Of a stretch of DNA of 43,080 bases, positions 11,659 through 31,363 are shown in pieces; the first letter of the stretch is position 1; each line of letters starts with the position of its first letter. The notes below the pieces were generated by a model. It worked only from the letters and a program-made list of their open reading frames with translations. It had not been told where the DNA came from and searched no databases. Source of the DNA: Nocardioidaceae bacterium (GTDB lineage: Bacteria; Actinomycetota; Actinomycetes; Propionibacteriales; Nocardioidaceae); NCBI GenBank assembly GCA_029268205.1, contig JAJUGK010000004.1, positions 1 through 43,080 on the forward strand, in the 5' to 3' direction. A program made the position numbers and the translations under genes.

Positions 11659-11672
11659 TGGAACGCGTTCCA
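11659..11672. promoter_or_regulatory. Putative KstR-type operator 2 (CYP125 side)
   Basis: TGGAACGCGTTCCA: perfect 14-bp palindrome and full match to TNNAACNNGTTNNA, 46 nt upstream of the P450 GTG start. Confidence 0.68.
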
Positions 11673-17121: not shown

Positions 17122-17135
17122 TGAAACACGTTCTA
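17122..17135. promoter_or_regulatory. Putative KstR-type operator 3
   Basis: TGAAACACGTTCTA fully matches TNNAACNNGTTNNA; in the divergent region between the DUF35 gene (start 17111) and the LLM oxidoreductase (start 17234). Confidence 0.65.
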
Positions 17136-19119: not shown

Positions 19120-19173
19120 GTCGCGGCTCTCTTCCGTACGGCGGCTGGGGTGGGAGGAACTCTAGTCACAAAC

Positions 19174-19187
19174 GAGAACGTGTTCTA
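19174..19187. promoter_or_regulatory. Putative KstR-type operator 4 (echA19/fadD19 divergent region)
   Basis: GAGAACGTGTTCTA (reverse complement TAGAACACGTTCTC, identical to operator 1 core); AGAAC-GT-GTTCT inverted repeat. Confidence 0.67.
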
Positions 19188-19198
19188 GTCTCCAACCC

Positions 19199-24370: not shown

Positions 24371-24426
24371 GGCGTCTCCTCGCCGACCGTCTCCGGCCGT
24401 TCGACTGGTCTTCGGGTCGGCGAAAC

Positions 24427-24440
24427 TATAACCTGTTCTC
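24427..24440. promoter_or_regulatory. Putative KstR-type operator 5 (fadE26/kshA divergent region)
   Basis: TATAACCTGTTCTC: 13/14 match to TNNAACNNGTTNNA with a degenerate left half-site, in a locally AT-rich stretch. Confidence 0.6.
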
Positions 24441-24521
24441 GTTTTGCGGGGGAGAGGTACTTCCACCTCTCATCCGCGACACTGGTGGTGGGCACCCGGC
24501 CCACGCGACGAGGAGGTTGCC

Positions 24522-25697
24522 ATGAACGCCGTCCAGGCTCCTGAGCACGCCCGGCAGCTCGACCGGGGCGTTGCCCCCATCCGCTACGCCCGGGGCTGGC
24601 ACTGCCTCGGGGTGGAGCGCCAGTTCCGCGACGGCAAGCCGCACGGCATCGAGGCGTTCGGCACCAAGCTCGTGGTCTGGGCCGACTCCAAGGGCGACAT
24701 CAACGTCATCGACGGCTACTGCCGGCACATGGGTGGCGACCTCACCCAGGGTTCGGTCAAGGGCGACGAGGTCGCCTGCCCGTTCCACGACTGGCGCTGG
24801 GGCGGCGACGGCAAGTGCAAGGCCATCCCGTACGCCCGCCGCGTGCCGCTGCGCGCGCGCACCCAGAAGTACCCCGTGGTCATCCGCAACGGCCAGGTGC
24901 TGATCTGGCACGACCCCGAGGGCTCCGCGCCCGACATGGACATCCTCCCGCCCGAGCTCCCGGGCATCGGCACCGACGAGTGGACCGACTGGTTCTGGGA
25001 GGTCAACCCGATCGAGGGGTCGCACTGCCGCGAGCTCATCGACAACGTCGTCGACATGGCGCACTTCTACTACGTGCACCTGTCCTTCCCGACCAGCTTC
25101 CGCAACGTGTTCGAGGGGACGCAGGCGACCCAGTTCATGGAGTCCAAGGGGCGGCCCGACGTCTCCGGCGGCTACGGCTCCCCGGACCTGTTCCTCAAGT
25201 CCGAGGCGACCTACTACGGACCGGCCTACATGATCAACTGGCTGTGGGTCGACTACAAGGGCTTCGAGACCGAGGTCGTCCTCATCAACTGCCACCTGCC
25301 CACCGGGCCGGACTCCTTCACGCTGCAGTACGGCATCGCGGTCCGCAAGCCCGAGGGCCTCGACGAGGACTCCGCGCAGTACATCGCCAAGAAGTACGCC
25401 GACATGTTCGGCGACGGCTTCCTGCAGGACGTGCACATCTGGAAGAACAAGGTGCCCGTGCAGAACCCGCTGCTGTGCGAGGAGGACGGGCCCGTCTACC
25501 AGCTCCGCCGCTGGTACGAGCAGTTCTACGTCGACGTCGCCGACATCGAGCCGGAGATGGTCGAGCGCTTCGAGTTCGAGGTCGACACGACGATGGCCAA
25601 CGTCAACTGGGAGGCGGAGGTCGCCGAGAACCTGCGCCGTCGCGCCGAGGAGGAGGCGGCCGCCACGCAGGGCGCCGACGCCGGGGCGGGGGCCTGA
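24522..25697 (+). CDS. kshA: 3-ketosteroid 9-alpha-monooxygenase oxygenase component (Rieske non-heme iron)
   Basis: Rieske CRHMGGDLTQGSVKGDEVACPFHDW (CxH...CxxH), mononuclear Fe site ELIDNVVDMAHFYYVHLSFPTSFRNVFEG; AGGAGG RBS. Confidence 0.92.
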   Translation: MNAVQAPEHARQLDRGVAPIRYARGWHCLGVERQFRDGKPHGIEAFGTKLVVWADSKGDINVIDGYCRHMGGDLTQGSVKGDEVACPFHDWRWGGDGKCKAIPYARRVPLRARTQKYPVVIRNGQVLIWHDPEGSAPDMDILPPELPGIGTDEWTDWFWEVNPIEGSHCRELIDNVVDMAHFYYVHLSFPTSFRNVFEGTQATQFMESKGRPDVSGGYGSPDLFLKSEATYYGPAYMINWLWVDYKGFETEVVLINCHLPTGPDSFTLQYGIAVRKPEGLDEDSAQYIAKKYADMFGDGFLQDVHIWKNKVPVQNPLLCEEDGPVYQLRRWYEQFYVDVADIEPEMVERFEFEVDTTMANVNWEAEVAENLRRRAEEEAAATQGADAGAGA

Positions 25698-25993
25698 TGG
25701 TCTCCTTCGCTCCGACGAGCGACGAGACCCTGGCCGACCAGCGCCTCTACACGGAGGCGAGAATGGTGGAGGTCGCCTGCCAGGACTGCCTGGCGGTCGT
25801 CCGCGTGAAGAAGAACAGCGAACACCACACCTCCGTGCAGTGGAGCACGAAGGCCCAGCAGGACTGCCAGGAGTTCAACCGCACCGGCGCGGGCGAGCGG
25901 GCGGTCCACCAGCCGTGCAGCCGGCTGCGCGACAGCATCGCGCGGGCGGTCGAGGACGGCACGATCCAGATCGGAGCCGAGGATGGCTACTGA
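25697..25993 (+). CDS. 98-aa Cys-containing protein of unknown function between kshA and kshB
   Basis: ATG at 25697 overlaps the kshA stop (ATGA-type 1-nt overlap); C-terminus overlaps the kshB start by 11 nt; MVSFAPTSDETLADQRLYTEARMVEVACQDCLAVVRVKKNSEHHTSVQWSTKAQQDCQEFNRTGAGERAVHQPCSRLRDSIARAVEDGTIQIGAEDGY. Confidence 0.8.
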   Translation: MVSFAPTSDETLADQRLYTEARMVEVACQDCLAVVRVKKNSEHHTSVQWSTKAQQDCQEFNRTGAGERAVHQPCSRLRDSIARAVEDGTIQIGAEDGY

Positions 25994-27071
25994 CTCCTAC
26001 GAGCTGTCGGTGCTCGACGTCATCGAGGAGACCGCCGACGCCCGCTCGATCGTGTTCGAGATCCCGGCCGACGCCGCCGAGGCGTTCGACTACCGGCCCG
26101 GGCAGTTCCTCACCCTCGCCGTCCCCAGCGACCTGACCGGCGTCGCGGCGCGCTGCTACTCGTTGTCGAGCACCCCCGGCGACGACGTCCTCAAGGTGAC
26201 GGTGAAGCGCACCGCCGACGGCTACGCCTCGAACTGGATCTGCGACAACCTCCGCCCCGGGGACACGATGCGGGTGCTGCCGCCCAGCGGCATCTTCACC
26301 CCCGCCTCGCTCGACGCGGACCTGCTGCTGTTCGCCGGCGGTAGCGGCATCACCCCGATCATCTCGATCACGAAGGCAGCGCTGAGCCGCGGGACCGGCC
26401 GGGTCGTGCTGGTCTACGCCAACCGTGACGAGCGGTCGGTGATCTTCGCCGAGGAGCTGCGCCACCTGGCCGAGCAGTACGGCGACCGGCTCGTGGTCGT
26501 CCACTGGCTGGAGTCCGTCCAGGGGCTCCCGGCCCCCGACCAGATTCGCGGGATCGCGGCGCACTTCCCGACCTACGACGCCTTCGCCTGCGGTCCCGCG
26601 CCGTTCATGAAGTGCGTGATCGGCGTCCTCAAGGAGCTCGACTTCCCGCGCGAGCGGCGGCACCAGGAGAAGTTCGTCTCGCTGGCGGGCAACCCGTTCG
26701 GCGATGTCGAGGAGGCGGCCATCGCCGAGGCGGAGGTCTTCGAGGCCGAGCACGAGCCCGACGACGCCCCCGCCCCCGAGCCGCAGCCGCAGGGAGCGGT
26801 CCATGTCGAGGTCGATCTCGACGGCACGACCTACGAGTTCGACGACTGGCCGGCCACCAAGCCGCTGCTCGACCACCTGCTGGCCAAGGGGGTGCCGGCG
26901 CCGTTCTCGTGCCGGGAGGGCAACTGCAGCGCGTGCGCCTTCCGGATCCTCGAGGGCGAGGTCAAGATGGAGCACAACGACATCCTCGACGACGACGACA
27001 TCGCCGACGGCATCCGACTCGGGTGCCAGGCCTACCCGGTCACCGACACCGTCAAGGGCACCTACAGCTGA
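25983..27071 (+). CDS. kshB: 3-ketosteroid 9-alpha-monooxygenase ferredoxin reductase component
   Basis: FNR-type FAD domain (RCYSLSSTPG), NAD domain (LLLFAGGSGITPIISI), C-terminal plant-type 2Fe-2S CREGNCSACAFRILEGEVKMEHNDILDDDDIADGIRLGCQA. Confidence 0.92.
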   Translation: MATDSYELSVLDVIEETADARSIVFEIPADAAEAFDYRPGQFLTLAVPSDLTGVAARCYSLSSTPGDDVLKVTVKRTADGYASNWICDNLRPGDTMRVLPPSGIFTPASLDADLLLFAGGSGITPIISITKAALSRGTGRVVLVYANRDERSVIFAEELRHLAEQYGDRLVVVHWLESVQGLPAPDQIRGIAAHFPTYDAFACGPAPFMKCVIGVLKELDFPRERRHQEKFVSLAGNPFGDVEEAAIAEAEVFEAEHEPDDAPAPEPQPQGAVHVEVDLDGTTYEFDDWPATKPLLDHLLAKGVPAPFSCREGNCSACAFRILEGEVKMEHNDILDDDDIADGIRLGCQAYPVTDTVKGTYS

Positions 27072-30925: not shown

Positions 30926-31363
30926 ATGAGCCAACCCGGAGGTCCCGCGATCTGCCTGTCGCGCCGTCGTGCCCTCGGCGGTGCGGCCCTCGCCGGTGTC
31001 GGGGTCCCGCTGCTGGCCGCCTGCGGCGGCGACGACGACGCGCCCGTCGAGCCCGGTGCCTCGGCACCGCCCCCGGGCGAGCCGCTGGTCGCGGTCGCCG
31101 ACGTGCCGGTCGGGGGTGCCTACATCGACACCGAGCAGCGCCTGGTGGTCACCCAGCCGACCGCGGGGGAGTTCAAGGCCTTCGACGGCACCTGCCCGCA
31201 CGCCCGGTGCGCGGTCAGCCAGCAGGCGCAGCGGCAGGTGATCTGCACCTGCCACGGCAGCCGGTTCGCGATCGAGGACGGCGCGGTGCTCGACGGCCCC
31301 GCCCCGGAGGGACTCGCCGAGATCGCGATCACCGTCGAGGGCGACCAGGTCGTCCGTGCCTGA
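30926..31363 (+). CDS. Rieske [2Fe-2S] protein with Tat-type signal and lipobox
   Basis: SRRRALGGAALAGVGVPLLAACGGDDD (twin-Arg plus LAAC lipobox); Rieske ligands CPHARC...CTCHGSRF. Confidence 0.87.
   Translation: MSQPGGPAICLSRRRALGGAALAGVGVPLLAACGGDDDAPVEPGASAPPPGEPLVAVADVPVGGAYIDTEQRLVVTQPTAGEFKAFDGTCPHARCAVSQQAQRQVICTCHGSRFAIEDGAVLDGPAPEGLAEIAITVEGDQVVRA

Follow-up and report, generated by a model that had tools for sequence, protein, structure and literature searches.

Organization of the kshA-X-kshB locus

The window (the whole 43,080-nucleotide stretch of Nocardioidaceae DNA analysed here) contains a small open reading frame, referred to below as X, that is flanked directly upstream by a gene for KshA, with Rieske and KshA_C domains, and directly downstream by a gene for KshB, with FAD, NAD and plant-type [2Fe-2S] domains. 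The features of the locus are as follows.

24425–24443 (+): predicted KstR-like operator ACTATAACCTGTTCTCGTT, 78 bp upstream of the kshA start
24522–25697 (+): kshA, 391 aa, Rieske oxygenase subunit of 3-ketosteroid 9-alpha-hydroxylase (PF19298, E=5e-83, and PF00355)
25695–25699 (+): TGATG, where kshA ends and X begins (kshA stop TGA, 25695–25697; X start ATG, 25697–25699; 1-nt overlap)
25697–25993 (+): X, 98 aa plus stop, four-Cys putative partner of KshA (C28-x2-C31, C57, C74; KNSEHHTSVQW; C-terminal DGY)
25983–25993 (+): overlap of the 3′ end of X with the kshB start, 11 nt, read from the sequence
25983–27071 (+): kshB, 362 aa, FAD/NAD/[2Fe-2S] reductase subunit (PF00970, PF00175, PF00111)

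The original prediction had X starting on the stop codon of kshA and ending inside the start of kshB, and overlaps of 1 nt and 11 nt, together with the PF19298/Rieske and FAD/NAD/Fer2 domains found in the neighbouring proteins, bear this out. In relatives, 190 of 194 X genes start either at the kshA stop or no more than 20 nt from it, 64 of them with TGATG. The operator ACTATAACCTGTTCTCGTT is an exact match to ACTRTAACNTGTTCTNGTT, a pattern modelled on the published KstR site at Rv3525c/Rv3526 (PMC1995591) and for which 0.01 chance matches are expected at up to three mismatches. From the overlaps and the KstR-type operator it therefore follows that kshA, X and kshB probably form one KstR-controlled, translationally coupled operon. 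The DGY C-terminus of X is retained at 40 of 42 Nocardioidaceae-type loci, where kshB lies from −11 to +58 nt away, and because it is kept whatever this distance, we take it to be a feature of the protein and not a by-product of the overlap.

Several other aspects of the window are worth recording. Further KstR-like sites are present at 11659–11672, 17122–17135 and 19171–19189, besides that at 24425–24443, and TNNAACNNGTTNNA has 10 matches in the window at one mismatch or fewer compared to 1.4 expected, suggesting that the window is an island of steroid catabolism under KstR control. A small open reading frame at 30926–31363 (+), between uvrA-like and uvrC-like reading frames, encodes a Rieske-like C-P-H / C-T-C-H motif pair and has an apparent export or lipobox-like N-terminus.

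Sequence conservation of X

X is a real gene and not a chance open reading frame. Two same-genus orthologues share 93% and 79% identity with it, at dN/dS values of 0.39 and 0.20, reflecting purifying selection; homologues are present in 156 of 346 genomes of the same family, and the gene order in the 31 family-level orthologue loci examined is kshA-X-kshB. All four cysteines noticed at the outset (C28-x2-C31, C57 and C74) are invariant across 114 non-redundant sequences, as are V35, Q48 and W49, with K39, T45, L77, I81, A84 and G88 nearly so. The His/Lys-rich segment that had also been remarked upon is real, its conserved part being K-x-S-x-x-(H/Q)-T-S-(V/I)-Q-W, and the window protein carries the complete family motif, C-x2-C ... 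K-x-S-x-x-(H/Q)-T-S-(V/I)-Q-W ... C ... C.

The expectation that X would match no nameable family also held, in that it has no curated family and no match in Pfam, NCBIfam, PHROGs or PDB sequences; with PHROGs silent, a known phage-type small protein was rejected. Neither Fer2, Fer4, Rubredoxin nor any other redox family in Pfam or NCBIfam matched the window protein or 26 family members. The cysteine pattern consists of one CxxC and two single cysteines, and the only family signals are weak, sub-threshold matches of some members to zinc ribbons or knuckles (e.g. Zn_ribbon_RPAB4 in five of the 26, best E = 0.002).

Four invariant cysteines in a protein encoded, in the window, between an oxygenase and its reductase could point to a small Fe-S or rubredoxin-like electron carrier, either as the missing third component that hands electrons from KshB on to KshA or as a link between the latter and other redox enzymes of steroid metabolism. 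This is the main rival to the accessory-subunit reading developed below, and we regard it as unlikely: KshB has FAD, NAD and [2Fe-2S] domains of its own, and the spacing C-x2-C-x25-C-x16-C fits neither ferredoxins nor rubredoxins, an identity that we rejected for lack of a profile match.

Association of X with KshA

In a sample of 395 genomes of the class, X is present in 54 and bona fide KshA (a KshA_C match with E below 1e-70) in 54, and the two sets are identical, with the holders of both falling in the same 15 of 138 genera. Naively, the hypergeometric probability of this co-occurrence is 10^-67 counted over genomes and about 10^-20 counted over genera, values that both overstate its significance because relatives are not independent. 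A survey of gene neighbourhoods, proposed in the original prediction as a check, showed that homologues adjoin kshA elsewhere too: 78 of 82 X genes immediately follow a strong KshA gene at its 3′ end, in the same orientation, and one more sits behind a fragmented KshA (locus L062). The remaining three are in Rhodococcus-type clusters, 4–11 kb from KshA, with KstD-like or old-yellow-enzyme-like genes as their neighbours; these were considered as counter-evidence to the pairing and dropped as such, KshA being in the same clusters. Placement of some copies beside KstD within KshA clusters would suit an electron carrier. We note that copies beside KstD-like or old-yellow-enzyme-like genes are found at L068:1814–2074, L071:2089–2349, L070:2061–2312 and around 13001–13213 of L236, and that no CDS is annotated over the X copy of the R. 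erythropolis plasmid.

The position of kshB is more variable. All three genes are together in Nocardioides-like genomes, Tsukamurella and a few others, the order in Tsukamurella being kstD-kshA-X-kshB with X annotated as ‘hypothetical protein’. In the related strain N. simplex the kshA genes are KR76_14170 and KR76_27070 and the kshB genes KR76_14160 and KR76_27080, according to transcriptome tables in PMC7807495; the unlisted locus tag that falls between each pair is presumably X. Plasmid 6 of Tsukamurella tyrosinosolvens (L235), a circular replicon of 18.7 kb, carries a compact steroid-ring module of hsaB-C-D-A, kstD, kshA, X and kshB. A long distance separates kshA from kshB in Rhodococcus and M. 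tuberculosis (PMC5270728), and in mycobacteria and Pseudonocardiaceae-like genomes X adjoins kshA with kshB not adjacent; family and genus labels of this kind were assigned from genome size, gene content and the named loci. Because X adjoins kshA even where kshB is absent nearby, it is tied to KshA rather than to KshAB, and a gene that accompanies kshA and not kshB is poorly explained as an electron carrier. The idea with which we started, of a third component or accessory subunit of Ksh, is thus supported and can be sharpened to a partner of KshA.

The distribution of X has apparent limits. All seven holders in a 247-genome sample of the phylum belong to the same class as the window, with none in the other classes, and X was not found at proteobacterial KshA loci in the plasmid collection; scans of named sequences used the mycobacterial subset of X as query. 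The reading frame downstream of a Sphingobium kshA appears to encode a different protein, without the CxxC or QW motif. In-frame KshA-X or X-KshB fusions, which would have proved contact directly, do not occur among the loci checked. Three observations had been named beforehand as contrary to the original prediction, namely no homologues beside kshA, unconserved cysteines, or a match to a known family; all were looked for and none was seen.

Co-inheritance and KshA genes without X

Distance matrices for 86 KshA-X pairs correlate with r = 0.85 in a mirror-tree comparison, against a permutation maximum of 0.10, and the nearest X neighbour is in the same KshA clade for 74 of 76 named-clade members, including several copies from one genome. 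KshA and X therefore duplicated and diverged as pairs, and this co-evolution supports a putative physical complex of the two.

An adjacent X is lacking from 19 distinct KshA genes. Thirteen of these constitute a single actinobacterial clade (SH-aLRT 99; loci L206, L211, L216, L207, L208, L205, L210, L221, L215, L212, L214, L222 and L220), three have X elsewhere in the cluster, and three are isolated and look like losses of X. Every one of the X-less genes sits in a genome with X elsewhere, and the clade provides a useful natural negative control. Only seven KshA positions separate the X-paired from the X-less clades (P19, E/Q76, K100, T155, V176, Y246 and K277, numbered by index in the 2ZYL chain), and these await the structure of a complex for their reading.

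Another alternative is that X is a hitch-hiking operon gene, its linkage to kshA a matter of inherited gene order and its function in another steroid step. By gene content all X holders appear to be steroid degraders, so that many catabolic genes would co-occur in this way. However, the surroundings of KshA-X pairs vary, with kshB, acyl-CoA genes, a sulfotransferase or an SDR nearby, and include plasmid-borne KshA paralogues; that 78 of 82 X genes are directly 3′ of KshA throughout these surroundings, and that X has duplicated together with KshA, make hitch-hiking the least probable of the alternatives, and a very improbable one.

DUF35 zinc-ribbon proteins are accessory partners of steroid aldolases, and by analogy X might be a substrate-handling subunit that helps KshA to recruit or orient bulky steroid-CoA thioesters. 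Such thioesters are reported to be physiological substrates for the Ksh of M. tuberculosis (cited in PMC6593523), a conserved basic Lys/His segment adjoins the Q-W of X, and different KshA clades have diverged X proteins of their own. This explanation ranks behind the electron carrier and is improbable, since profile searches brought up neither DUF35 nor a CoA-binding family.

Mycobacterial relatives and Rv3527

A mycobacterial KshA adjoining X is 84% identical to the M. tuberculosis KshA of structure 2ZYL, and the nearest KshA relative found, at 95% identity, is followed by an X of 149 aa. In M. senegalense the order is KshA, X, sulfotransferase-like, SDR and a gene of no known function, which fits the M. 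tuberculosis genes Rv3526, Rv3527, Rv3529c, Rv3530c and Rv3531c (gene list in PMC6429209). X therefore corresponds by position to Rv3527, the hypothetical protein beside kshA (Rv3526), and apparently travels with KshA across steroid-degrading actinobacteria, M. tuberculosis included, the link to Rv3527 being positional and drawn from orthologues in close relatives. The description of X as something undescribed needs qualifying in this light: no function for Rv3527 or X was found in the literature searched, but the positional M. tuberculosis orthologue is already catalogued as a hypothetical protein.

One compilation counts Rv3527 as essential to survival in macrophages and in mice, and it is not listed among the genes required for growth on cholesterol, whereas kshA and kshB are (PMC6429209). 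PMC2905415 places it among genes repressed in hypoxia and induced on reaeration. Such expression, and the presence of a small four-Cys protein within a KstR-type operon, could be accounted for if X sensed redox state or metals and regulated the steroid operon, or the synthesis of KshA, and were not a subunit of the enzyme. This we hold to be less probable again than substrate handling, since no DNA-binding domain or fold was matched, the operon is probably already under KstR control, and tight one-to-one co-evolution with each KshA paralogue is unexpected of a general regulator.

Compared to the window protein, mycobacterial X has an extra N-terminal helix (PDVDRLARSMLLLHG) and an Asp/His-rich linker. 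Examples are L193:1019–1465 (−) and L143:3809–4291 (+), in which the conserved N-terminal helix is followed by a variable Asp/His-rich stretch (for example LGHDDHHDDHHDGH) that is possibly metal-binding.

Predicted structure of X

The AlphaFold model of the window protein is of moderate quality (pLDDT 72.7), and the AF2 model of the 149-aa mycobacterial X is better (pLDDT 85.3, with residues about 50–140 at 91–97). The latter is compact and is predicted to contain a long helix and a unit of three strands whose first turn, a beta-hairpin knuckle, carries C80-x2-C83; C109 falls between two short helices, and C128 immediately precedes the last helix. Searches of PDB folds with both models gave no significant match; an IscU fold match (E = 2.4) and recurrent short matches to ribosomal proteins were non-significant and were dropped.

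A putative accessory subunit of KshA

We propose, with a probability of roughly 0.58, that X is an accessory subunit specific to KshA, with four cysteines that form a structural site, probably for zinc, and that it matures, stabilises or tunes a labile oxygenase. Through coupled translation X would be made right after KshA, and it would act on KshA and not on KshB. The four invariant cysteines would hold a structural metal, probably zinc, with the CxxC forming a knuckle and the other two ligands at helix ends; a structural metal is suggested because the cysteines are invariant, there is no obvious export signal and no redox family was matched. The K-x-S-x-x-(H/Q)-T-S-(V/I)-Q-W strand and the C-terminal helix of X may provide the surface that contacts KshA, and X might help the KshA trimer to fold, to acquire and retain its Rieske cluster and mononuclear iron, or to stay active in an oxygenated cell.

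The biochemistry of KshA is relevant here. The KshA of M. smegmatis loses its activity when purified, that of R. rhodochrous stays active only if KshB is purified along with it, and for that of M. tuberculosis anaerobic purification was used (PMC4064121). Even so, KshA and KshB by themselves show activity, both in vitro and in whole cells of E. coli (PMC4064121), which means that turnover does not strictly require X; that the two suffice in vitro also weighs against an intermediate electron carrier. A stabilising role for X would fit an oxygenase that is labile in vitro and yet active without X if kept anaerobic or with KshB. Counting against an accessory subunit are the at least 16 KshA paralogues without X nearby, the proteobacterial KshA loci without it, and the X genes beside those of KstD or old-yellow-enzyme type.

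On balance the textbook two-part Ksh enzyme probably has a third part. The chances are evenly balanced that X represents a new class of accessory proteins for Rieske oxygenases, that its fold is absent from the PDB, and that it is an obligate third subunit of actinobacterial Ksh in the cell (Rv3527 in M. tuberculosis).

Comparison with known systems

KshAB is the enzyme that opens the steroid ring; it yields intermediates for the steroid industry, and M. tuberculosis needs it for pathogenicity (PMC4064121). The enzyme is well known, but the conserved third gene is without a described function in the literature searched, and its fold is without a detectable relative in the PDB. If X is a third subunit of Ksh, then the accepted two-component description is incomplete, and a conserved gene co-inherited with kshA would explain the fragility of KshA in vitro. 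Co-expression of X could improve 9-alpha-hydroxylation biocatalysts, the hypothetical gene Rv3527 gains a testable role, and a general question is raised as to whether other Rieske oxygenases have partners that do not transfer electrons.

Both X and the DUF35 partners are small, Cys-rich proteins paired one-to-one with a steroid enzyme, although they have no detectable similarity in sequence or fold. Another precedent is the steroid 9-alpha-hydroxylase of Nocardia sp. M117, the first purified, which is summarised in PMC4064121 as a flavoprotein and two iron-sulphur proteins (Strijewski 1982). As with X, this system has a third protein besides oxygenase and reductase, and the three-component preparation keeps the electron-carrier explanation alive; in that summary, however, the third component is called an iron-sulphur protein, whereas X has no recognisable Fe-S motif. 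Ksh as published has two components, both of which flank X here with all of their expected domains, whereas the kshA-X-kshB operon and its relatives contain a third conserved gene tied to kshA.
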